DNA of 13,501 nt from Planctomycetota bacterium (GTDB lineage: Bacteria > Planctomycetota > Phycisphaerae > WQYP01): assembly GCA_021852245.1 (NCBI GenBank), contig JAJZNY010000462.1, positions 1 to 13,501 on the forward strand. Reading direction: 5' to 3'. Shown here piece after piece: positions 128 through 12,897 of the stretch. How positions within the stretch are numbered: the stretch's first letter is position 1; the number at the start of each line of letters is the position of its first letter. The notes under the pieces are model-generated. The model ran no database searches and was not told the origin of the DNA. It saw nothing but the letters and a program-made list of their open reading frames with translations. Position numbers and translations under genes: made by a program.

Positions 128-661
128 CCCGCCGCTCTCGGCATCCCGGCCGAGCATCAGCAGTGAAAACGGCCCGAGAATCACCGGCCGCGTGTGAATG
201 CCCAGCGCTGCCGCCTCGAGAAATTCACGCACTGGTTTGTCATCGAGTAATTGAAACGGCCGACCGGAACTGAACTCCGGCACGATGTAGTGATAATTCG
301 TATCAAACCATTTGGTCATCTCCATGGCGGGCAGATCACGGCGGCCGCCACCGCCGACACGCCCGCGGGCCATCGCAAAGTAATCCGGAAGCGTTACCGG
401 CCCCGTGATGCCGAATCGCTCGGGGATGGCACCGACCATCACGGCCGCATCCAGCACATGGTCGTAGAGGGAAAAATCATTGCTCGGAATATGATCGATT
501 CCCGCAGCCTTCTGCAGCAGCCAGTTGTCGTGACGGATCGCCGCAGCCGCCGCCTGCAGCTCGGCCCCGTTCACCTCGCCCCACCAATATCGCTCAAGAC
601 ACTTTTTCAATTCCCGGCCGGGGCCGATCCGTGGAAAACCGAGGTTGGAAGCTATAACCAT
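38..661 (-). CDS. metE: Cobalamin-independent methionine synthase MetE, N-terminal fragment (interrupted)
   Basis: MetE transfers the methyl group of 5-methyltetrahydropteroyl-triglutamate to homocysteine without B12, in the last step of methionine synthesis in the cytoplasm. The N-terminus follows the family closely: NLGFPRIG, the RELKK segment, QKAAGID, YDHVL, and [17 protein letters not shown] near residues 112-128. Only 661-128 (178 codons) is MetE-like; the family is usually about 750 residues. From base 127 down, the frame reads into the second copy of a 127-bp repeat, gives nonsense and stops at 38. I chose ATG at 661 because a GGAG lies 11 nt upstream; a TTG three codons earlier would sit only 2 nt from that GGAG. 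It starts 40 nt after nrdB and is probably co-transcribed with it. The zinc-binding C-terminal half is not in the window. Confidence 0.93.
299..425. repeat. 127-bp exact direct repeat, copy 2 (in-frame copy within metE)
   Basis: This is the partner of 1-127. It sits inside the reliable part of metE and encodes a normal MetE segment on the minus strand, ending near the [10 protein letters not shown] motif, so it is the genuine copy. Confidence 0.95.
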
Positions 662-701
662 AATTCTCAATACTCCAAATCAACCATGACTGACGCCAGG
701 A

Positions 702-1757
702 TCACCAGACCAGCAGGCCGCCGGACTGGTATTCGGTCACGCGCGTTTCAAAAAAGTTCTTCTCCTTCCCCAGATCAATCGTTTCGCTCATCCATTTGAA
801 CGGGTTGGAGGATCCGAAATGCAGCGGCAGGCCGATCCGCTCCAGGCGCCGATCCGCAATGTACTGCACATATTCTCGAAACAGACCCTTGTTGAGGCCC
901 AAAATGCCATCGGGCAGGCAGCTTTCCGCATATTGAACTTCATACTCAACCGCATCGAGGATCATCTGGACAATCTCAGCCTGCAGGTCGGCTCTCCACA
1001 CGTCCGGGTTTTCCTCTTTTATGGCGTTGATCAGATCGATGCCGAAGTTCAGATGGATGCTTTCATCACGCAGAATATACTGAAACTGCTCGCCGATGCC
1101 GGTCATCAGATTGCGGCGGTGAAGCGAGAGAATCATCACAAACCCGCTATAGAAGAAGATGCCCTCCATGATGACATAAAAGCCGACGAGATTTTTGATG
1201 AACTCGCCGATTCCCTCGGGCGTTGCCGTCGTGAAATCAGGTTCCAGCACGCGGCGTGTGAGGCGCATCACAAATTCGTCCTTGCCGGCGATGGAATCCA
1301 CTTCGTGATACATATTAAATACTTCGCGACCGTCGAGCGACAGCGATTCGCATATGTAATGAAACGTATGGGTGTGCACCGCCTCCTCATACGCCTGGCG
1401 CAGCAGATACTGGCGGGCTTCCGGATTCGTGATGTGCCGGAAGATGGCCAGCACGATATTATTTCCCACGAGACTCTCGCCGGTGGAAAAGAACCCGAGG
1501 TTACGTTTGATGACCAGCCGCTCCGCATCCGAAAGGGTATCGGACTTCCACAGTTCGATGTCCTTCTGCATGGATACCTCGCTGGGGAGCCAGTTGTTGG
1601 CGCAACCGTTGATGTAATGCTCCCATGCCCACTGATATTTGAGCGGCCAGAGCTGATTGACATCCACGGCGGTGCAATTAAGCAGCCGTTTGTTGCCGGC
1701 GTCTATTTTCTTGGACAGATCGTGGGGCGCGGATAGGGTTCCTGTGCAGCAACTCAT
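702..1757 (-). CDS. nrdB: Ribonucleotide reductase small subunit, class Ic (Phe replaces radical Tyr)
   Basis: This is the R2 subunit, which builds the metal cofactor that starts radical chemistry in NrdA and so supports dNTP synthesis in the cytoplasm. It is 351 residues. All six metal ligands can be placed: E94 (TGES), E125 and H128 (EAVH), E198 (MEGI), E232 and H235 (DESIH). The residue four after H128 is F132, where E. coli has radical Tyr122, and the first ligand is Glu rather than Asp. Both features mark the Chlamydia trachomatis-type class Ic enzyme, which uses a Mn(IV)/Fe(III) centre in place of a tyrosyl radical. The C-terminal tail keeps Y343, the likely radical-transfer tyrosine, and ends in W351. 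AAGGAG lies 8 nt before ATG 1757 and is part of a small hairpin (1768-1780). The gene begins 50 nt after nrdA. The assignment to R2 is near certain; the Mn/Fe cofactor is inferred from family knowledge. Confidence 0.96.
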
Positions 1758-1762
1758 GAGGG

Positions 1763-1780
1763 GTTCTCCTTAACGTAAGG
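1763..1780 (-). promoter_or_regulatory. nrdB ribosome binding site within a small hairpin
   Basis: On the minus strand AAGGAG precedes the nrdB start by 8 nt. The inverted repeat CCTTA-N3-TAAGG (1768-1780) covers most of that Shine-Dalgarno sequence, so the mRNA could fold it into a short hairpin with a 3-nt loop. It may tune the NrdB:NrdA ratio. The stem is only 5 bp, so the effect is speculative; the RBS itself is clear. Confidence 0.5.
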
Positions 1781-1807
1781 TAATACATGTTCAATATATG
1801 CGCCGGA

Positions 1808-4651
1808 CTACTGGCACGCTTCGCAGTCTGGATTATCCACCCGGCAGGCGGGGGTTGCGGTTGCCGCGGCAAGCGCCGGCTCGGAGGGTGTGGTACTGCG
1901 GCCGATGGCCACCTCCGCCGACGCCGAGCGGCTTTTCATCCACCGCGGCTGAATGCCATGCCGATTGATATCCAGACTCGATTTTTCAATCTGGGTCGCC
2001 GCCTGCCCGCGTAAATAATATGTCGTTTTGAGCCCCTTGCGCCACGCCAGAACATACATGTCGTGGAGCGTCGCACCGGAGGGTCGATCAATATAGAGAT
2101 TCAATGATTGCCCCATGTCAATCCATTTCTGGCGGCGACTGGCGGCTTCAATGATCCACCGGGGTTCGATCTCAAACGCGGTCCGATACAGATTCCGAAT
2201 GTGGGTCGGAATGCGTTCAATCGAGGCAATCGAACCGTCGTGATATTTGATTTCATCCAGCATGCCAGTATCCCACAGGCCCAGCGCCTTGAGATCTTCA
2301 ATGAGATATTCATTGACGATGGTGAATTCGCCCGAGAGATTAGATTTGGTAAAAAGATTCCGATACTGCGGCTCAATCGACTGGGTGCAGCCGGCGATAT
2401 TGGAAATGGTGGCCGTCGGGGCAATGGCGAGAATCTGGCAGTTGCGCATTCCGTTTCGCCGCACCACCTCGCGAACCTGCTCCCACGGCATGGTGGTGGA
2501 GCGGTCCATATCAAGATCGCCACCGCGCGCCGCCGCAAGCAGGTCGATCGTGTCGATCGGCAGCAGGCCTCGATCCCATTTCGATCCCCGATAACTGGCG
2601 TAAACTCCCCGCTCCTTCGCCAGTTCGGTCGAGGCAAGAATTGCAAAGAAGCTGATCGCCTCCATACTGCGGTCCGCCAGATCCACGGCCTGCGGATCGG
2701 CGTAGCTGATCCGAAGTTTGAAGAGCATATCCTGAAAACCCATGATCCCCAGCCCCACCGGCCGATGCTGCAGATTGGACCGTCGCGCTTCCGGCGTCGG
2801 GTAGAAATTGATGTCGATCACGTTATCCAGCATCCGCATGGCCGTGCGGACGGTGGATTCCAATTGCTGCAGATCCAGCCCATCACGGCCGAGATGCTCG
2901 GCAAGATTGATCGACCCGAGATTGCAGACGGCGGTTTCCTCCGGGCTGGTGTTGAGAAGGATTTCGGTGCACAGATTGGAACCATGCACACGACCGACAT
3001 GATCCTGCGCCGAACGGATATTCGACGGGTCCTTGAAGGTAATCCACGGATGGCCCGTTTCGAAAAGATGAGAAAGCAGATGCCGCCATAATTTCACGGC
3101 GGGGACGGTTTTGTGCTGGCGAAGCAATCCGCGGGCGGCGAGGTTCTCGTAGTGGGCGTAACGGGCTTCAAATTCGGTACCGTAGAGGCCATGCAGATCG
3201 GGCGCTTCGTCCGGGCTCAGAAGCGTCCAGTCGCCGTTGCTCTCGACGCGTTTCATGAACAGATCGGGAATCCATGCGGCGGTATGCATGTCGTGAGTGC
3301 GGCGGCGCTCGTCGCCGGTGTTCTTGCGCAGTTCGATGAAATCCTCAATCTCAAGATGCCAGATTTCCAGATACGCACACACCGCCCCCTTGCGCTTCCC
3401 ACCCTGATTCACCGCCAGGGCGGTGTCGTTGACGATCTTCAGAAATGGAATCACCCCCTGACTTCGACCATTGGTGCCGCGGATAAAGGCGTTGGCGGCA
3501 CGTATGTTGGTCCAGTCGTTGCCCAAGCCACCGGCCCATTTGCTCAGCGCCGCATTGTCGCCAATGACTTTGAAAATATGGGCCAGATCGTCGCGAACGG
3601 TTGACAGATAACACGAACTCAATTGCGGATGCACCGTCCCGCTGTTAAAGAGCGTCGGCGTGGCCGACACAAAGCGGTAGGTGGAAAGCACCTCATAAAA
3701 TTCCATGGCTCGCTGATTGCAGCCGTCACCCTCGTGCAGGGCCAGCCCCATCGCCACGCGCATCCACAGGTATTGCGGAAGTTCCAGTAATTGCCGATCA
3801 TTGCGGATCAGATAGCGATCCGCCAGCGTTTGGAGGCCCAGGTAGGTAAATGTTTCGTCCCGATCCGGACGGATGGCCCGCGCCAGCAATTCCAAGTCGA
3901 ACTGCGCCAATCGCGGATCAAGCAGGCCCGCATCAATTCCGGCCTGCACATACGGAGCCAATCCGCGCTCGATCATCACCGCCTCGACGCCGATGTCTTC
4001 CGGAATTCCAAGCACCTCGCGATAAAGCGTTTTAAGCAGCAGGCGCGTGGCCACCCGGCCATACTCCGGCTCGCTTTCAATGCGCGTCCGTGCCGAGAGG
4101 ATCGCCGCCAGAGTAACCTGCGATTCCGTGGCCCCGTCAAAAAGCGACGCAACCGTATCGGCGATGAGTTCCTCCGGACTGCAATGCGTCAATCCGGCGC
4201 CGGCGGCGTAAATCGTCCGTTTGAGCGCGTGGATATCCAGTGGTCGGCGGTTGCCGCCAGCATCCAGCACCGAGAGACGCTGCCCCGGTCCGCGCGATTG
4301 AGTTCCGTCGCCCGTCAGTGTGCGCACCCGGGCCCGCTCCTGGCGATAGAGAATGTAGCGACGCGCCACGTTGTAGCAGCCGGCCTGCATCAATGATATT
4401 TCAACAATATCCTGAATATGCTCGACATGAAGCGCCTCGCCGGAAGCGCCGGCTTTGCGAACGGCGTCGATTGCCCGGTCGGCCGATTCCTGCACCAGCT
4501 TTTCCATCTCCGCGGACGGCGCCTGACCGTCCTGCCGGCCCAATTCAGAATTGAACGCGGCGCGAATCGCCTGCACGATCCGCTGTGCGTCAAATTTCAC
4601 CACCCGACCGTCGCGTTTCCGCACCGACATCCGGCTCATTGCATCCACCAT
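1808..4651 (-). CDS. nrdA: Ribonucleoside-diphosphate reductase large subunit with two ATP-cones
   Basis: This is the catalytic subunit, which reduces ribonucleoside diphosphates to deoxyribonucleotides together with NrdB. From ATG 4651 it has 947 residues. Two tandem ATP-cone domains come first (about 9-108, starting VRKRDGRVVKF; about 125-214, starting RLSVLDAGGNRRPLD), which normally sense ATP/dATP to set overall activity. The catalytic residues follow: C347 (SSCYL), N559/C561/E563 (NLCTE) and C576 (AVCNLGS). Radical-transfer tyrosines Y878-Y879 lie in TTYYLR. The tail ends DCEACQ with C943-x-x-C946, the pair that relays electrons from thioredoxin or glutaredoxin. An ATG at 4717 is open, but it lacks a Shine-Dalgarno. 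ATG 4651 has AGGGGG about 6 nt upstream and begins just before the first cone, so I prefer it. It is the first gene of the riboswitch-controlled operon. Two cones are more than the single one of E. coli; multiple cones occur in other NrdA, including Chlamydia. Confidence 0.97.
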   Translation of the reverse strand: MVDAMSRMSVRKRDGRVVKFDAQRIVQAIRAAFNSELGRQDGQAPSAEMEKLVQESADRAIDAVRKAGASGEALHVEHIQDIVEISLMQAGCYNVARRYILYRQERARVRTLTGDGTQSRGPGQRLSVLDAGGNRRPLDIHALKRTIYAAGAGLTHCSPEELIADTVASLFDGATESQVTLAAILSARTRIESEPEYGRVATRLLLKTLYREVLGIPEDIGVEAVMIERGLAPYVQAGIDAGLLDPRLAQFDLELLARAIRPDRDETFTYLGLQTLADRYLIRNDRQLLELPQYLWMRVAMGLALHEGDGCNQRAMEFYEVLSTYRFVSATPTLFNSGTVHPQLSSCYLSTVRDDLAHIFKVIGDNAALSKWAGGLGNDWTNIRAANAFIRGTNGRSQGVIPFLKIVNDTALAVNQGGKRKGAVCAYLEIWHLEIEDFIELRKNTGDERRRTHDMHTAAWIPDLFMKRVESNGDWTLLSPDEAPDLHGLYGTEFEARYAHYENLAARGLLRQHKTVPAVKLWRHLLSHLFETGHPWITFKDPSNIRSAQDHVGRVHGSNLCTEILLNTSPEETAVCNLGSINLAEHLGRDGLDLQQLESTVRTAMRMLDNVIDINFYPTPEARRSNLQHRPVGLGIMGFQDMLFKLRISYADPQAVDLADRSMEAISFFAILASTELAKERGVYASYRGSKWDRGLLPIDTIDLLAAARGGDLDMDRSTTMPWEQVREVVRRNGMRNCQILAIAPTATISNIAGCTQSIEPQYRNLFTKSNLSGEFTIVNEYLIEDLKALGLWDTGMLDEIKYHDGSIASIERIPTHIRNLYRTAFEIEPRWIIEAASRRQKWIDMGQSLNLYIDRPSGATLHDMYVLAWRKGLKTTYYLRGQAATQIEKSSLDINRHGIQPRWMKSRSASAEVAIGRSTTPSEPALAAATATPACRVDNPDCEACQ

Positions 4652-4940
4652 CGCGAACCCCCTTTCAAACCGCCACCCATCGGCCGCCGAGGTCGATGGA
4701 ACAGGCGTTGATTTCATGCTTCGGGGAGATGGCAGACGAGCGCACGGACATGCAGATCAGCTGCGCGGGCAAAAACAACCCGCGCCGATTGCATATGCAG
4801 ACATCGACCATCGCTCCCGCGAGCGAAGCAGACCTGCGGATGGGTTTGGCGCTGAAAATGCCCGAGGGAAAAGCCCAGCACAAAAAGTTGGGCACAAAAC
4901 TCAGGCAATTTAGTCCGAAACCTTCCCGCGAGGTTCTGGT
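4652..4940 (-). other. 5' leader between riboswitch terminator and nrdA
   Basis: These roughly 290 bases of nrdA-operon leader hold no convincing gene. Short open frames overlap here on both strands, but none has a good RBS plus a recognisable protein. On the minus strand a second terminator-like element occurs at 4869-4893: a GCCCA/TGGGC stem of 5 bp with an 11-nt loop, then TTTT. It is weaker than the one at 4941-4965. The nrdA Shine-Dalgarno (GGGGG) is at the 3' end of the leader. Confidence 0.5.
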
Positions 4941-4965
4941 AAAAAGCCGCCCCGATCAGGGACGG
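4941..4965 (-). terminator. Intrinsic terminator of the cobalamin riboswitch (attenuator)
   Basis: On the minus strand CCGTCCC pairs with GGGGCGG across a 5-nt loop (7 bp including one G-U), followed by C and then five T. It starts directly after the conserved 3' end of the cobalamin aptamer (ACCTGCCGGC). That spacing is typical of riboswitches that act by transcription termination. Ligand binding should favour this hairpin and stop transcription before nrdA; the competing antiterminator was not resolved by eye. Confidence 0.7.
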
Positions 4966-5160
4966 TCGCCGGCAGGTCTTCGGACTCACAGGCTGAAGGG
5001 CGCTGGTAAGAGCAACCCATTTTCCTACTTGCCGTCACTTCCCGTTCCATGGGGTGGAACAGTGTCGGGGCTAAAGGGCCACCGGACGGCGTTCGTTCCT
5101 GTTTACCGCTGCGGGGCAGTTCCGGATTCGCACCGGATTCCCTCTTACGTTACCACACAA
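4966..5160 (-). ncRNA. Cobalamin (B12) riboswitch
   Basis: Read on the minus strand, the region carries the ordered signature of the cobalamin riboswitch family (Rfam Cobalamin). GGGAATCCGGTGCGAATCCGG comes first, apart from its first base. Then come AACTGCCCCGCAGCGGTA, a CACTG...CGGGAAG segment around 5033-5072 corresponding to the B12-box region, and the 3' closing AGCCTG...CCGAAGACCTGCCGGC. The aptamer lies about 30 nt after the predicted transcription start and is followed at once by an intrinsic terminator. It controls nrdA-nrdB-metE. B12 riboswitches are known upstream of B12-independent isozymes (metE, nrdAB) in bacteria that also hold the B12-dependent versions, so repression by cobalamin is expected. 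Exact ends are approximate. Confidence 0.95.
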
Positions 5161-5194
5161 CACTAAATGTTGATGGCAAACCAGCTATAGGCAC

Positions 5195-5222
5195 ATGATA
5201 TAGCGGTATCGATTCTTGTCAA
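5195..5222 (-). promoter_or_regulatory. Sigma70-like promoter for the nrdA-nrdB-metE operon
   Basis: On the minus strand there is a consensus -35 TTGACA (5222-5217), a 16-nt spacer and a -10 TATCAT (5200-5195; five of six match TATAAT). The predicted start is near 5188, which puts the whole cobalamin aptamer in the leader. An inverted repeat CAACA-N5-TGTTG (5158-5172) lies just inside the transcript; it could be a leader hairpin. No clear NrdR box was found. Confidence 0.7.
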
Positions 5223-5490: not shown

Positions 5491-7311
5491 ATGATTTTGT
5501 CATCCCATCCGCGTGGTATCGCCAGGCAGCCGGAAGTCCGAGACGTCGCACTCCCCTTGCCGCACGATGAGGCTGGCGAGCGTAATGTGATCGCATCGAT
5601 CCTGATTGACCCGGAATGCTTCAGCGATGTGGCTGAGATTCTGCCCACGCCCGGCGCTTTTTTCGGGCTCCTGCCCCAGGCCGTCTACGGCGCGATGCTG
5701 GCACTTCAAAGTGCTGGCGACCCGATAGACATTTACACGGTCTCGGCCCGGCTCCGCGAGAGCGGATATCCCCGCCTCGATGACGCCCATGCCTACCTTA
5801 CCGAAGCCCTCAACTCCCTTCCATCCGCCGCCAACGCCATCACCTACGCTAAAACCGTCGCTGAACTCTGCGAGCGGCGCCGGCTTTCCATCGCACTCCG
5901 CAATGCACTTATCGGATTGCAATCCGGCGCAACACGGGAAAGCGTACTGGCGACCTTGGATGCGGAATCACAGGTGTCGGAGCGGGCTGTTAAAGAGGAA
6001 AAGCGACGGCCGGTGATGCATTCCGCAGCCTACTACGGCGTGGCGGGTGAATGGGTGCGATTGGTCGATCCCCACACCGAGGCCGATCCCGCTGCGACGC
6101 TGCTGCAGTTTCTCATTGCGTTTGGCAATGCGGCCGGGCGCAGAGCCCATTTTCATATCGGGGCCACCAAGCATTATCTGAATTTATTTGGGTGTCTGAT
6201 CGGGGCGACCAACGCGGGCCGAAAGGGCACATCGCTGGAAGGGGCCCTGCTGCCCATCCGATTGATCGATGAGGCGTGGGCGGATCGTTGCCAGGCGACC
6301 GGTTTATCCAGCGGCGAGGGGTTGATTGATACGGTTCGTGATCCGCAGATTCAGGCCGATCAGATGATCGATGCGGGGGTGCAGGACAAGCGGCTGCTGG
6401 TGATCGAAACCGAACTGGCCGCCCCGATGCAGCGGATGGGCCGCGACGGCAACACCCTCTCGACCATCGTCCGGCAGGCGTGGGACGGCGGGCGGCTGCA
6501 GACGATGACCAGGGGAAACCCGATGCGGGCCACGGATGCCCATATCAGCATCATCGCCCACATCACACCGGAAGAGCTCCGCCGACTGTTAACTGCCAAC
6601 GAGCAGACGAATGGATTTGCGAACCGCTTTCTGTGGTGCTTTGTGCATCGCAGCAAATACCTTCCCTTTGGCGGCCGGATCGATGAGACCCTGCTTGGGC
6701 CGATCCATGCTCACTTGATGGATGCCCTTGAATTTGCCGCCCAACCGCGGGAAATCGTCATGAGCCGGGATGCCGCTGCGGCGTGGGAGGGATATTACCG
6801 GCAGTTGACGGCCGATCTGCCCGGCGTGGTGGGAGCCATGACCGCACGTGGTGCGCCGATGGTGCGGCGGCTGGCGTGCATTTATTCATGCCTGGATTTT
6901 TCGGAGAAAGTGGAGTTGGTGCATCTTGAGGCGGCGATGGCGATCTGGAATCATTGTCGGGAATCGGTGGAATATGTCTTTGGCAATGGGGATGGCGGCG
7001 ACTTGGCGAGATTGATCGACTGGATTGATAACCGCGGCGGAAGCGTGACGGTTCGTGAGGTGGCGAGGACGGCTCCAAGGCGATACCGCCGCAACGCCGA
7101 GGAGTGGTTGGAAAAATTGATCGCCGCCGGCGAAGGGAATTGGAATATACCAGATTGTCCGGGGCCCGGACGACCAAGGAACTTATTCAGGCTTGCGACG
7201 CTGGCGACGGTGACGGAAGTTGAGAATGGCCCTGACGAAAGGAATAACGTCGCCGTCGCCAGTGTCGCCGATGTCGCAACCGCCGCCGATCCTGAGGACG
7301 ACCTGCTCTGA
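5491..7311 (+). CDS. DnaB N-domain / DUF3987-type ATPase fusion, mobile-element replication protein
   Basis: The product has 606 residues. Residues about 22-130 resemble the N-terminal domain of DnaB replicative helicase (GERNVIASIL, ..PIDIYTVSARL, ..YLTEAL). Residues about 180-495 resemble the DUF3987 family: a P-loop-like GATNAGRKGTS (238-248), VIETELA (304-310), GNTLS..RQAWDGGRL (320-336), HISIIAHIT (351-359) and NGFANRF (374-380). Residues 505-555 look like a winged helix (GGSVTVREVA...EEWLEKL), followed by an Ala/Val-rich tail. Such proteins occur in integrated elements and plasmids and are thought to aid their replication, but the biochemical role is not established. ATG 5491 is preceded by GAGG at 7 nt spacing; an open start at 5440 lacks this. 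The last 91 codons are duplicated at 12607-12897. No RecA-like DnaB motor is present, so it is not an ordinary DnaB. Confidence 0.85.
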   Translation: MILSSHPRGIARQPEVRDVALPLPHDEAGERNVIASILIDPECFSDVAEILPTPGAFFGLLPQAVYGAMLALQSAGDPIDIYTVSARLRESGYPRLDDAHAYLTEALNSLPSAANAITYAKTVAELCERRRLSIALRNALIGLQSGATRESVLATLDAESQVSERAVKEEKRRPVMHSAAYYGVAGEWVRLVDPHTEADPAATLLQFLIAFGNAAGRRAHFHIGATKHYLNLFGCLIGATNAGRKGTSLEGALLPIRLIDEAWADRCQATGLSSGEGLIDTVRDPQIQADQMIDAGVQDKRLLVIETELAAPMQRMGRDGNTLSTIVRQAWDGGRLQTMTRGNPMRATDAHISIIAHITPEELRRLLTANEQTNGFANRFLWCFVHRSKYLPFGGRIDETLLGPIHAHLMDALEFAAQPREIVMSRDAAAAWEGYYRQLTADLPGVVGAMTARGAPMVRRLACIYSCLDFSEKVELVHLEAAMAIWNHCRESVEYVFGNGDGGDLARLIDWIDNRGGSVTVREVARTAPRRYRRNAEEWLEKLIAAGEGNWNIPDCPGPGRPRNLFRLATLATVTEVENGPDERNNVAVASVADVATAADPEDDLL

Positions 7312-7324
7312 ACCGCCGGGGCGG
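7034..7324 (+). repeat. 291-bp direct repeat, copy 1 (3' end of the DUF3987 gene)
   Basis: Aligns without gaps to 12607-12897 (constant offset 5573) with nine differences that I could count. Three are scattered (7041, 7047, 7144) and six are clustered in the last codons (7274-7299). It covers codons 516-606, the stop codon and 13 bases beyond. The two copies bracket the helicase-nuclease gene. Confidence 0.95.
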
Positions 7325-7767: not shown

Positions 7768-10700
7768 CTAGGCTGTCGAACCAAGTTCACCCACGACTGG
7801 GACGCTTTGTGCGCCCTCCCCCTCTGCTTTCCACTGATCACGAATTTCTGCAGCGCGACGAATTACTCGGTTCAGGAGATCGGGATTTCCGGGCCGCCGG
7901 TTGTCCTCGCGGTGCGGCCCAAGCCTTTCAATGCCCATGTTCTCAAGTTGCTCGAAGAGTGGCCGCAAAGCGTCCTCCGGATTACGAAAAAACAGCGAGC
8001 CGCGGATGCGCACGAAACGCCAGCCCAATCTTTCCAGAACCATTTGTCGTTCCAAATCATGGCTGCACTGCTCAAGCTGGTGGTACCGCTCACCATCGCA
8101 CTCCACCGCAAGGCGGCTTGTCGCTCCGTCCACGACCAAGTCGATCCGATAATAGCCCACGGGGACCTGGAACCGCACCCGGTAACCGTCTTGGATCAAC
8201 CGCTCGGCGACGGCCTTTTCGAACGGCGATTCTGTCTTCGACGCCGCCTCGTCGATTTCACGGCTCATACTTCTCGGGTTGAGCGCATGCTCAATAAGCC
8301 TGCGGCGCAGGTCGCCGACCTTCAGGTCGCACTCCAGATCAAGGGAATGGACCACCCATAGCTGATCACGGGCACGACTGGCGGCAACGTTGAATCGCTT
8401 CTTCACGGATGCGCCGGGGCCTTCGGAGCGCCTGCTGAGCGGCTCTCCATCGGGATCCGACGCATCGACCAATGAAACGAAGATAATATCACGCTCATCA
8501 CCCTGAAACTGTGCAGGGCTACCGCATACTATTCGCCGCTCCATGAGCGCCGCCGGGGGGAGCCGCTTCCGGAGTATGTCGTCAACAATGGTGGCCTGCT
8601 CATCGCCCAACAGCGATATCACGCCAAAGCTCTTTGCAGCATATTCCGGCTGGTCCATGCATGCCATTGTGAGTGATGCGATCTCGATTGCCTCGGCCCG
8701 GTTAATTTTTTCCTCCCGAAAGCCATTGGCCACCCGGTGGCAGACGGTGTGGGGCCGGATCGCCACCCCCGACATGTCGCGAAGGGGCTTTATTCTGCCG
8801 TCGTAGCTCAGTTGGTTGCTAAACTCGATGATTTCTGGTGCACAGCGAAAATGCTCGCGCAGACAAATATTACCCCCGAAGCTTCGCGCGGCTATGTCGT
8901 ACAGCGACTGCTTTCCATCAAAAAGGTGTGCTCCCGGAACATCTGAGAGATGTTCGCTAACCAGACGATCGATGGGGCCCTGAAGTTCTCCAACGGCATC
9001 CGGGCTAACCTGTTCGTCATCTCCCACTACCACAATCCGCTTTGCGAGGTACAAGGCAATGAGTCCGAGAATGTCGCACTGGCTCGCCTCGTCCACCACT
9101 ACAACATCAAAGAGGCCCGGGCGGATATCAAAGGTTTCGGCCAGCCGGGAAAGCGGCACAATCCATACGGGCACCGCGTCGCGGCATTGCCCCATTTGTT
9201 GCCGTGCCGCAGCTCGCAGCTCTGGCGCCCGCTTTCCGGTACCCCGTCCGAGTTTGCGGATGGTCTGAAGCCAGCCGAAGAGAGCCAGCTGCTGCGGCAG
9301 GCCGATGCGGGTCTTTTGGGCGGCCCATGCGAGCTTGCCGACTGCTTCGGCTGTTATTTTCATCAGCTGATCATTCATTTCGCGGATCGCGTGTTGCAGT
9401 GAGGTAGCGTCGCGGTCGTGCCGGTCGCTTAACGCCTGATCCAGTTGTTTCCAGAGCCAGGCACGCTCGGGGTCACCGGGGGGAAAAGAGCCGTCGTGAG
9501 GGGAGCACCGTTTTTTGATCGCTTCGGACCAGCCGGGCGCCGATATGGACAATTTCTTAAGTAATTCAGCACGGCGTGCGAGCCGGAAGCGGATATCAAT
9601 TAGAGCGTTTAATCGCTGGTAGGCCCGCCTATATCCCTCGACGTCGTGCCGCTCCAGAGAACGCAGCAAATCGGCGGCGGGCGTTCCATCTGCAACCTTT
9701 GAGCCCGCGGAGCGCACATGTTGAAAAAGCGCCGGGGCGCGTTGCAACCGGCCCTGCAACTCAAGCCATTGCGAGCGCGACTCAATGCAGGGCGATATCA
9801 CGCCCCTTATGACGCCTGCAATTCGCAGGGCCTCCCCTTGCCGCCCCGGCTGAGGGGGTGCCTGGGCCAGTAGCTGCTCCACGTCAAGCCCGAGCCCACC
9901 AAGTTCGCGAATCAGCGGCCGCCACACCCGTTCGCCCCAGTCGAGCAGCTTTCGTATCTCCCGGATGTAGTGCTCCATCATCCTTTCTGGCTCCTCGCCA
10001 AAATCCGCGGACCCCGGGCCCCCTATCGGATTTAACAGGCGATCCCAGGCCGTTACCAAATCCTTGCGGCAGACCACCACCGCGGATGCAGCGAGCAGGG
10101 CCCGGAAATCCTCGGGCTTCTCCGGCCTCTCGCCATTCACCTTGACTCTGCCAAGCAGGCGCCGCCAAGAGGGATGCTGGAGCAGGCAAAAAGGTGAGAG
10201 TTTTTTGCCCCCCTTTAAGAAGTTCAGTATCTCACGGAGCAAGGCCATCTGATCCTTAGCCGAAATATCGGTGGCCAGTTGAGGCCCATGCATTGCGGAT
10301 TTTTCGTATTCCACCGCTGCGAGCTTAGCAGTGTTTTCGACATCCTTGAAAAGTTTTTCCCAAGGCGCATGGGAGCCGGTCCGCCCAAGTCCAAGCGAAA
10401 CCAAGCACGTCCGCCAGGCAGGCGCGCTCGGCGAGCCCCAATCCTCGACGGCGGCGAGCAAGTCCCCACGAATCCCGGACAGCCTACTCAGTTGGTACTG
10501 CCACTCGCTGGCGCCAGCTGTTTTCCCACTATCCACCGCGCCGCCCGCCAAACTATGCCGCAATTTGGCAACGTCTATCCCCGGGGGATCCCTCCAGCAC
10601 TGTCCGCCCCGGTTGGGCATTTTGTTCAGCCTCTGTGATGCATCGACGAACTCGGCAAATTCATCCGGGTTGGGAATTCGGTCGACGTCCGGTGATGAAG

Positions 10701-12423
10701 CGGCAGCCTGCACCTCGTCGACGGGCGTAATGGTCAAGTTGAAATTATAGAGTTCTTCCAACTCCTCCGAGCTAAGGGGCAACGCACTGCCAACCGCTAC
10801 CGAGCCCGGTATCCAGTCATCGCGCCCAACGCCTTCCGCCAGCGTCTTTGCCGCCGCAGACGGGCGCACGGACCGCCCATTTATCGCAATTTCGCGGTGC
10901 TCGCCTTGGATCGTTTCCAATAGTTCTTTTCGAAGGTGGCGGATGCGGTCAATAATGGTTTTGCGCTGTTTCAGTGCAGCTTCAGCCTGGCCGCGGAGTG
11001 TTCTGGCGTCTGACCTGTCCAATTGCTCCGCGATGTGTTGGACGGACGATTCAAATTGTCGTCGGGCCTCGATATCGTTGTCGAGCAACGGTACGCAAAG
11101 TGGGCGCAGAGGCTCATCCACCTGGTCTCGCAGTACCCGCAGAGCCTTGGCGGTGTGGCTGGTAACCAGCACGCTCTGGCCGCGGGCCAAGAGGTGCCCA
11201 ATCAGGTTGGCGATGGTGTGAGTCTTGCCCGTGCCCGGTGGACCCTGTACGAGCACCGCACCGTGTTCCTCCAGCCGTTTGGCTATCTGAAGCTGCTCGC
11301 CATTGGCTGGTTTTGATAGCAATATTTGCGAATCTTCGTTGGCGCTGCTCGCAACCTCTCCCGAAGGTTCCTCTTCAGGAGCGGCCCGAGTCCCTGAAAT
11401 TCCAACCACGCGCGAGATGTGGTCCGGAATTGGTTCGCCGCTGGCGATACGATCCAGAATCTGATCCAAGGCCAGGTCGAATCGTCCTGTCCTCTCGCGC
11501 AAAACCAGCAATTGGCAGCGCTGAATACTGGGGCATTCCGGACCTGCCTGCCAATCGTGCACCGCCTGTGGTGCCAACAGCACACCTCCCGGCGATAGTT
11601 GATTAGCCAGCTCCCTTAAGAAGTCGTTCGTGGCAGCCTCGTCAAAAAACCCAGCATCTTCCCGTTCCAGTTTGCGGCGCCATTCCCCAATCTTTTCTCC
11701 GTCAACCCCCGGCAGTTTGCGGAGTAGCTGCGTATATAGCTCCACCGGCTGGTCGGTGGGGACAATTTTGAATTCGGGTACGCGGGCGTCAAATTCCAAT
11801 TGGACCCGTTTAAGCAACAGCGGGTGTTCCACACGGCCTTTGTCCAATTCCCAACGCAGCATGCCATCGCAGAAAAGCAGCTCCGGCGGAGGCGTTTCAC
11901 GTTCAATTCGGGCCTGGACCTTGTATATTTTTTCAAACACGTCCCGCGATTCAAAGGCCAACCGCTGGCCGCCGGCCCAGATTTTCCAGCGAGCCCGCCA
12001 TTCCGTGAGGGCTGCCGGGCGGCGCGGATCATCGTCGAACTCTTCAGCCCTGAATTCTGAAGGCTGGGTCCCGCGTACCATTCGGGCGTTAATATCTACG
12101 CCCCGCCGGGCATCACCCCATCCTGGCCGCAGCCAGTCGCGAATGATCGCGGGAGGGTCGGGCGGTTTTGGTATTTCAGGCCGTGAAACCCGCAGAATGA
12201 CGGCCTCCGAGGCCGAGGAAGGGTGCCCACCCGCCATGGCATCCGGTTGGTAGTTTGAGATGGACGAGTGGTTTGGTAGAGCGCCAATATCGAGCCACCA
12301 AGGTGCTTCTCTGAACCGCGAAAGAGGATGCTGCCGCAGCGCGTACCACCCTTGGAGAAATCGGAATAATCGCAGCACGCGGTCGCGGGCTAAATTCCCA
12401 CCCTGTTCCTTATCAAGATCCAT
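7768..12423 (-). CDS. SF1 (Upf1/COG1112-like) helicase with C-terminal Vsr/DUF559-like nuclease, putative defence protein
   Basis: A 1551-residue protein. Residues 1-370 are unrecognised. The helicase core has a Q-motif region NGEQLQ (374-379), Walker A GPPGTGKT (394-401), motif Ia VLVTSHTAKA (418-427), Walker B VVVVDEAS (1107-1114), motif III VVVGDDEQ (1131-1138), motif IV LREHFRC (1188-1194), motif V QFQGDERD (1305-1312) and motif VI RFNVAASRARD (1343-1353). A mostly helical insert of about 680 residues separates motifs Ia and II. Residues 1399-1480 form a PD-(D/E)xK-like nuclease: E1402, D1428 (YRIDLV), E1441 and D1443 (VECDG). Helicase-nuclease fusions of this type are common in anti-phage islands; defence is inferred here from domains and context. 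The open frame extends to 12750, but those extra residues are antisense to a repeat, so I start at ATG 12423. Confidence 0.88.
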   Translation of the reverse strand: MDLDKEQGGNLARDRVLRLFRFLQGWYALRQHPLSRFREAPWWLDIGALPNHSSISNYQPDAMAGGHPSSASEAVILRVSRPEIPKPPDPPAIIRDWLRPGWGDARRGVDINARMVRGTQPSEFRAEEFDDDPRRPAALTEWRARWKIWAGGQRLAFESRDVFEKIYKVQARIERETPPPELLFCDGMLRWELDKGRVEHPLLLKRVQLEFDARVPEFKIVPTDQPVELYTQLLRKLPGVDGEKIGEWRRKLEREDAGFFDEAATNDFLRELANQLSPGGVLLAPQAVHDWQAGPECPSIQRCQLLVLRERTGRFDLALDQILDRIASGEPIPDHISRVVGISGTRAAPEEEPSGEVASSANEDSQILLSKPANGEQLQIAKRLEEHGAVLVQGPPGTGKTHTIANLIGHLLARGQSVLVTSHTAKALRVLRDQVDEPLRPLCVPLLDNDIEARRQFESSVQHIAEQLDRSDARTLRGQAEAALKQRKTIIDRIRHLRKELLETIQGEHREIAINGRSVRPSAAAKTLAEGVGRDDWIPGSVAVGSALPLSSEELEELYNFNLTITPVDEVQAAASSPDVDRIPNPDEFAEFVDASQRLNKMPNRGGQCWRDPPGIDVAKLRHSLAGGAVDSGKTAGASEWQYQLSRLSGIRGDLLAAVEDWGSPSAPAWRTCLVSLGLGRTGSHAPWEKLFKDVENTAKLAAVEYEKSAMHGPQLATDISAKDQMALLREILNFLKGGKKLSPFCLLQHPSWRRLLGRVKVNGERPEKPEDFRALLAASAVVVCRKDLVTAWDRLLNPIGGPGSADFGEEPERMMEHYIREIRKLLDWGERVWRPLIRELGGLGLDVEQLLAQAPPQPGRQGEALRIAGVIRGVISPCIESRSQWLELQGRLQRAPALFQHVRSAGSKVADGTPAADLLRSLERHDVEGYRRAYQRLNALIDIRFRLARRAELLKKLSISAPGWSEAIKKRCSPHDGSFPPGDPERAWLWKQLDQALSDRHDRDATSLQHAIREMNDQLMKITAEAVGKLAWAAQKTRIGLPQQLALFGWLQTIRKLGRGTGKRAPELRAAARQQMGQCRDAVPVWIVPLSRLAETFDIRPGLFDVVVVDEASQCDILGLIALYLAKRIVVVGDDEQVSPDAVGELQGPIDRLVSEHLSDVPGAHLFDGKQSLYDIAARSFGGNICLREHFRCAPEIIEFSNQLSYDGRIKPLRDMSGVAIRPHTVCHRVANGFREEKINRAEAIEIASLTMACMDQPEYAAKSFGVISLLGDEQATIVDDILRKRLPPAALMERRIVCGSPAQFQGDERDIIFVSLVDASDPDGEPLSRRSEGPGASVKKRFNVAASRARDQLWVVHSLDLECDLKVGDLRRRLIEHALNPRSMSREIDEAASKTESPFEKAVAERLIQDGYRVRFQVPVGYYRIDLVVDGATSRLAVECDGERYHQLEQCSHDLERQMVLERLGWRFVRIRGSLFFRNPEDALRPLFEQLENMGIERLGPHREDNRRPGNPDLLNRVIRRAAEIRDQWKAEGEGAQSVPVVGELGSTA

Positions 12424-12606: not shown

Positions 12607-12884
12607 GCGGCGGCAGCGTAACGGTTCGTGAGGTGGCGAGGACGGCTCCAAGGCGATACCGCCGCAACGCCGAGGAGTGGTTGGAAAAATTGATCGCCGC
12701 CGGCGAAGGGAATTGGGATATACCAGATTGTCCGGGGCCCGGACGACCAAGGAACTTATTCAGGCTTGCGACGCTGGCGACGGTGACGGAAGTTGAGAAT
12801 GGCCCTGACGAAAGGAATAACGTCGCCGTCGCCAGTGTCGCCGATGTCGCAACCGCCGAAGATTCTGCCGACGATCTGCTCTGA
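12607..12884 (+). pseudogene. Orphan 3' fragment of a DUF3987-type gene
   Basis: Encodes the last 91 residues of the protein at 5491-7311 in the same orientation and frame, ending at TGA 12882-12884. A TGA sits in frame at 12591-12593, and homology to the parent ends at the GGS codons, so the ATPase and DnaB domains are absent. A GTG at 12633 is open but has no evident reason to be used. It differs from the parent by WD for WN and by AEDSADDLL for AADPEDDLL at the end. It is best read as a recombination scar or relic of a paralogue, not a functional gene. Confidence 0.85.
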
Positions 12885-12897
12885 ACCGCCGGGGCGG
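12607..12897 (+). repeat. 291-bp direct repeat, copy 2, beside the helicase-nuclease promoter
   Basis: Partner of 7034-7324 at about 97% identity without gaps. Sequence on either side is unrelated between copies. With copy 1 it encloses about 5.3 kb holding the helicase-nuclease gene and the intergenic region. Confidence 0.95.

Follow-up and report, generated by a model that had tools for sequence, protein, structure and literature searches.

As far as the accessible parts of the papers cited here go, riboswitch control of B12-independent isozymes has been described enzyme by enzyme. The methionine synthase gene metE can be found under B12 switch control (PMC2211319), and in Priestia megaterium B12 represses MetE where MetH can work (PMC9600662). 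Regarding ribonucleotide reductases, the nrdABS operon of Streptomyces coelicolor has a cobalamin riboswitch (Borovok 2006, as cited in PMC8620254 and PMC4342826), and B12 elements accompany NrdDG in the presence of NrdJ (PMC545781). In Bacillus methanolicus MGA3, separate cobalamin switches lie over metE and over nrdAB (PMC4342826), which bears out the statement of an earlier note on the present DNA that each kind of switch is known separately.

The locus considered here lies in a stretch of 13,501 nucleotides from a Planctomycetota bacterium (hereafter the window), and it is very likely an operon in which two B12-independent enzymes, a class I ribonucleotide reductase and MetE, are repressed by B12. 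Each half of this arrangement is published; one switch over both was not found in the accessible main texts of the open-access literature, supplements aside, and a combined nrdAB-metE operon is possibly listed, unremarked, in the gene lists of PMC3766115.

The leader and the three genes

The order proposed in the earlier note, a cobalamin switch followed by nrdA, nrdB and metE, holds on the minus strand from 5222 to 128. The promoter claimed there is also present: a sigma-70-like TTGACA-16-TATCAT (5222-5195, minus strand) is near-consensus, matching at 11 of 12 positions, and the promoter scan found one such site where 0.3 were expected in shuffled sequences. Its -10 box overlaps the 5' end of the aptamer match, and a TTGAC box lies directly 5' of the aptamer in all six aligned leaders (the window and five others). 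The Rfam check of the minus strand called for by the earlier note returned a cobalamin riboswitch aptamer at 5200-4954 (minus strand), matching the full RF00174 model (1-189) by sequence and secondary structure with 94.9 bits (E 5.2e-23) against a gathering cut-off of 31.5 bits; no other Rfam match in the window reaches its gathering threshold. From the riboswitch family we infer that this leader binds a corrinoid and is regulated in the B12-OFF sense.

The genes are as closely spaced as had been claimed, with a gap of 50 nt between nrdA and nrdB and of 40 nt between nrdB and metE. Because the gaps are short, the genes are co-directional and the scan found nothing resembling a promoter or a terminator in 600-1900, the switch and the three genes are read as one operon. 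Sites resembling ribosome-binding sites precede nrdB (AAGGAG) and metE (GGAG).

The large subunit of a class I ribonucleotide reductase is encoded by nrdA (4651-1808, minus strand), identified by domain and NCBIfam matches. Its reading frame is open from 4717, and between 4717 and 1808 it holds ATP-cone, all-alpha and barrel domains; the ATG at 4651 is a likelier start than 4717 because a ribosome-binding-site-like AAGGGGG precedes it. A leader ORF (4714-4989, minus strand) has a stop that overlaps the upstream nrdA ATG candidate (ATGA), possibly by chance. NCBIfam equivalogs score over cut-off for both subunits (NF005544 for NrdA, NF005550 for NrdB). A viral origin of nrdA is not suggested, the best identity being 51% to phage (among 5,000 records listed), 55% to viral contigs and up to 63% to cellular sequences (among the best 80 of each).

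By its sequence, the small subunit encoded by nrdB (1757-702, minus strand) is class Ic-like. In the motif ExxHxxxY, whose radical Tyr is replaced by Phe or Leu in class Ic proteins, it has Phe132, within EEAVHTHTF. The solved chains closest to it by sequence, 1syy, 4d8f and 2ani (about 549 bits, residues 15-351), are presumably those of the Chlamydia trachomatis class Ic subunit. Of 15 like operons, 12 have Phe at the radical position, L030 has Leu and the distant L193 has Tyr, while in L010 this stretch is apparently out of frame and unreadable in the alignment. A 99%-identical NrdB is found on a public contig of 8,363 bases (among the best 120 of 7,997 matches). The last gene, metE (661-128, minus strand), encodes cobalamin-independent methionine synthase and is present as an open frame of its first 178 codons only, which correspond to the N-terminal domain and give part matches to the NCBIfam MetE models.

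Outside the operon, a direct repeat of 291 nt (97% alike; 7034-7324 and 12607-12897) corresponds to the 3' end of a DUF3987 gene. The two copies flank a stretch of 5.3 kb that includes a long gene for a helicase-nuclease (AAA_11/AAA_12, MTES_1575), which has part matches, below cut-off, to anti-phage families. This stretch resembles a defence cassette that has inserted at the end of a gene. The DUF3987 protein has no relatives in the viral contigs searched and, in plasmids, only partial ones (75 records, all with less than 80% coverage).

Recurrence and origin of the gene order

The arrangement is real and not unique to the window. The order nrdA-nrdB-metE can be found in 14 other genomes, 13 of them Chloroflexota, and a fifteenth has nrdA-metE-nrdB. 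These 15 operon genomes (11 fetched regions plus G002, G010, G015 and G016) are not independent, six being near Thermogemmatispora and five having almost identical NrdB. A cobalamin-family switch scores over the Rfam cut-off in 13 of the 15, and the other two fall less than 1 bit short (30.9 of 31.5 bits and 35.8 of 36.5 bits); counting the nrdA-nrdB-metE genomes separately, 12 of the 14 have a match upstream of nrdA that scores above cut-off, and in two the match is just under it. Among the 80 best NrdA relatives from genome contigs, the order nrdA-nrdB-metE is seen in L010, L030 and L033 and the order nrdA-metE-nrdB in L002; in all four a cobalamin match scoring above cut-off precedes nrdA. 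The metE of L030 extends beyond the contig end.

A MetE relative occurs in 41 of 201 Chloroflexota genomes, and the metE neighbourhood was checked in 33 of the 41 (30 loci with flanks of about 1.5 kb, and three genomes picked by MetE resemblance). There nrdB adjoins metE in 10 of the 30 loci, or in 13 of 33 if the three picked by resemblance are included. The 11 fetched regions, which were preselected (eight by known adjacency, three by MetE resemblance to two of the ten), all have nrdA-nrdB-metE, and nine have a switch over cut-off. With the same flanks of about 1.5 kb, nrdB was found beside metE in none of 25 loci in Verrucomicrobiota (the phylum of G006), where L210 has, on the opposite strand, only a reductase stretch of 29% identity, in none of 30 in Actinomycetota (the phylum of G017) and in two of 11 in Planctomycetota (the phylum of G004), namely the near-copies L227 and L230, with nrdB about 750 nt 5' of metE.

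Regarding its origin, the operon was probably assembled at least twice, judging from the trees. In the NrdA tree (54 rows) the operon label takes five changes, at least three of them by starred branches, or four changes with the short-contig rows uncounted, among which is L030, a true operon row left uncounted because its metE is cut at the contig end. A single clade of ten operon rows was rejected by NrdA in a 26-row tree (p-AU 2.5e-34) and was not rejected without L002 and L193 (p-AU 0.081), nor was a single operon clade rejected in the 43-row MetE tree (p-AU 0.080), and all these p-AU values are soft because the rows were chosen after larger trees had been viewed. The window operon may share its origin with the Chloroflexota ones. 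As for the placement of the host, the NrdB of the window groups with Latescibacterota (SH-aLRT 96), the nearest rows in the NrdB tree being L001, L003 and L002, and the NrdA and MetE trees do not decide the placement.

Some other arrangements were seen in passing. L002 has two cobalamin matches (7824-8015 and 11108-11279): one lies 5' of nrdA, the other, which is partial, falls in the nrdA-metE interval, and nrdB follows farther on. This cluster may be an intermediate between having separate switches and sharing one. In Bradyrhizobium (L061:8566-10001), metE with a cobalamin-like motif (found with a pattern of our own, not Rfam) is divergent from a nearby nrdA. At the Afipia locus L040, metE is likewise divergent from nrdA, and no cobalamin-like motif was found there.

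Mode of control and its alternatives

We infer that the switch works at the level of transcription and is turned OFF by B12. Binding of adenosylcobalamin, or of a similar corrinoid, to the nascent leader would close the aptamer, the downstream leader would then adopt an OFF fold, and transcription would most likely end at a hairpin with U5 at 4965-4941. With B12 scarce, readthrough by RNA polymerase would yield the class Ic-like, O2-dependent reductase together with MetE, the former replacing NrdJ and the latter MetH, both of which the host is predicted to have. With B12 available, the cell can probably shut down both backup enzymes at once.

The candidate intrinsic terminator (4965-4941, minus strand) was found by the terminator scan as a hairpin, CCGUCCC-UGAUC-GGGGCGG, followed by C and U5. 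Two terminator-like sites in this region against 1.2 (sd 1.0) in shuffled sequences are not significant alone; the hairpin pairs with probability 0.98-1.0 in all four transcript lengths folded (RNAfold). When leaders are compared by eye, a stem with differing letters comes after the aptamer in the window (CCGUCCC/GGGGCGG), L030 (CCGCGCC/GGCGCGG), L193 (CCGUACCC/GGGUGCGG) and L010 (GCCACGC/GCGUGGC), and only that of the window carries a U-tract. The immediate intrinsic terminator of the earlier note is there as a hairpin with U5, but the claim is weakened by the three relatives whose stem has no U-tract. Given the hairpin and the U5, termination at this site is plausible. An antiterminator candidate, in which the 5' arm of the terminator pairs with 5101-5088 (probability about 0.7-0.87) in a transcript ending at 4954, was dropped, 64 of 200 shuffled arms pairing upstream equally or more. 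Another pairing, which appears once the terminator hairpin is forbidden, would need to outcompete a local hairpin.

A second hairpin, CCU-CGCGGGA-AGG or similar, comes after the first stem in the same four leaders, and in L004 and L007 its motif lies farther downstream, the first stem not being evident. In the window it takes the form of a P13-like hairpin, GAACCU-CGCGGGA-AGGUUUC (4936-4917, minus strand), a motif common to the relatives and of putative function. The UCGC in its loop is complementary to GCGA in the aptamer loop L5 (a four-base match, with no chance control), and matches between L5 and the second hairpin are of four bases in L193 and L010 and of three in L030, L004 and L007 (likewise with no chance control). 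A kissing loop between L5 and L13 is described in PMC9600662, and the P13-like hairpin could form one in the window; its pairing probability is 0.0 in the three folds containing it (RNAfold, with no pseudoknot test).

The prediction that the B12-dependent counterparts are present elsewhere in the genome mostly holds in the relatives, fails for NrdJ in five and is not general. MetH is found in 14 of the 15 operon genomes (12 over cut-off; G010 and G015 part-length or in pieces), with no match in G002. A second, NrdJ-type reductase occurs in ten: G002, G010 (in two frames), G015, G016, G178, G167, G079, G088, G070 and G151. In G016, G167, G088, G070 and G151 the NrdJ match falls into parts within a single open frame, with a stop-free stretch of about 1 kb between them, the pattern expected of an intein, and that of G079 is perhaps split likewise, with one piece among the matches listed. 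In G054, G098, G063, G122 and G129 the single PF02867 match is the operon's own NrdA, and no other class I or II reductase was found with PF02867, monomeric RTPR-type class II enzymes lying outside this search. NrdD (PF13597) gave no match in any of the 15, where a control matched in 6 of 14. CobS is found in 11 of the 15 and absent in G002, G010, G015 and G178, although its presence is no proof of de novo synthesis. Herpetosiphon aurantiacus has no B12 synthesis genes and a switch-regulated B12 transporter (PMC3766115).

Three other readings of the window have to be weighed against this one. A real switch might act at translation or via a later leader structure, with 4965-4941 a structural stem and its U5 incidental, which seems somewhat unlikely to us. 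The stems without a U-tract in L030, L010 and L193 would fit it, as would the strong hairpins with T-runs some 97-116 nt past the aptamer in L033 and L006 and a weaker one before TTTT about 93 nt past the aptamer in the window; but the 7-bp, G+C-rich stem with U5 has the standard form of a terminator, and a distance of about 300 nt between the aptamer and the likely nrdA start is ill-suited to direct masking of that start. A truly broken or chimeric metE, which would leave the switch over nrdAB only, is highly improbable. The metE frame does depart from its family near base 128, and it is unreadable beyond that point because bases 1-127 are an exact copy of 299-425 (100% identity). The break coincides with this 127-nt repeat at the very end of the window, the sign of a place where an assembly stopped; assemblers commonly use 127 as their largest k-mer, and the 11 fetched relatives have an open metE frame of 760-835 codons at the equivalent place. 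The repeat is probably a contig-end assembly artefact by which metE was cut, not a real frameshift.

It is also unlikely that the host makes no isozyme swap, NrdAB being its sole reductase and the B12 switch merely tuning its level. The five genomes with one PF02867 match and no PF13597 match would be of this kind, provided that no reductase was missed there, and, with no other reductase found, full B12 repression should not be tolerated there. Their switches (L191, L192 and L199-L201) are weak, at 32-41 bits, two of them being AdoCbl-II by Rfam and a third just under the AdoCbl-II cut-off. The window aptamer, at 94.9 bits to RF00174, is unlike these five, and its neighbours in the NrdB tree L001 and L002 have a separate NrdJ in their genomes, whereas the genome of L003 has one TIGR02504 match only. 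A wider reading, in which a repeatedly assembled B12-independence module brings DNA-precursor and methionine synthesis under one sensor and in some hosts puts the switch over the sole reductase, with the B12 signal setting DNA-synthesis capacity instead of selecting an enzyme, appears rather improbable. Repression of both enzymes by B12, acting through the leader, is the reading we prefer for the window.

Comparison with described systems

A single switch over both enzymes shows that two B12-linked steps can be governed jointly, and the run of genes seems to have arisen on more than one occasion. What such a switch does becomes a question in the five genomes where it stands over the only reductase found. 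Among the closest described systems, within the accessible parts of the sources cited at the outset, is that of B. methanolicus, where both B12-independent isozymes are likewise B12-switched within one genome; it differs in having two switches and two transcripts, where the window has one switch before one gene run. As in the window, the B12 switch of S. coelicolor stands before class I reductase genes, those of its nrdABS operon. The S. coelicolor genome has NrdJ and, to our knowledge, its nrdABS operon is without metE, unlike the window. The likeness to the Chlamydia trachomatis class Ic subunit extends to the about 549 bits and the Phe at the radical site, and we know of no B12 switch over the reductase of that organism. 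The metE switch of P. megaterium would be comparable to that of the window in letting B12 repress MetE where MetH can work, and it has an L5-L13 kissing loop, for which the window has a candidate; it differs in being a tandem SAM-Cbl switch over metE alone.
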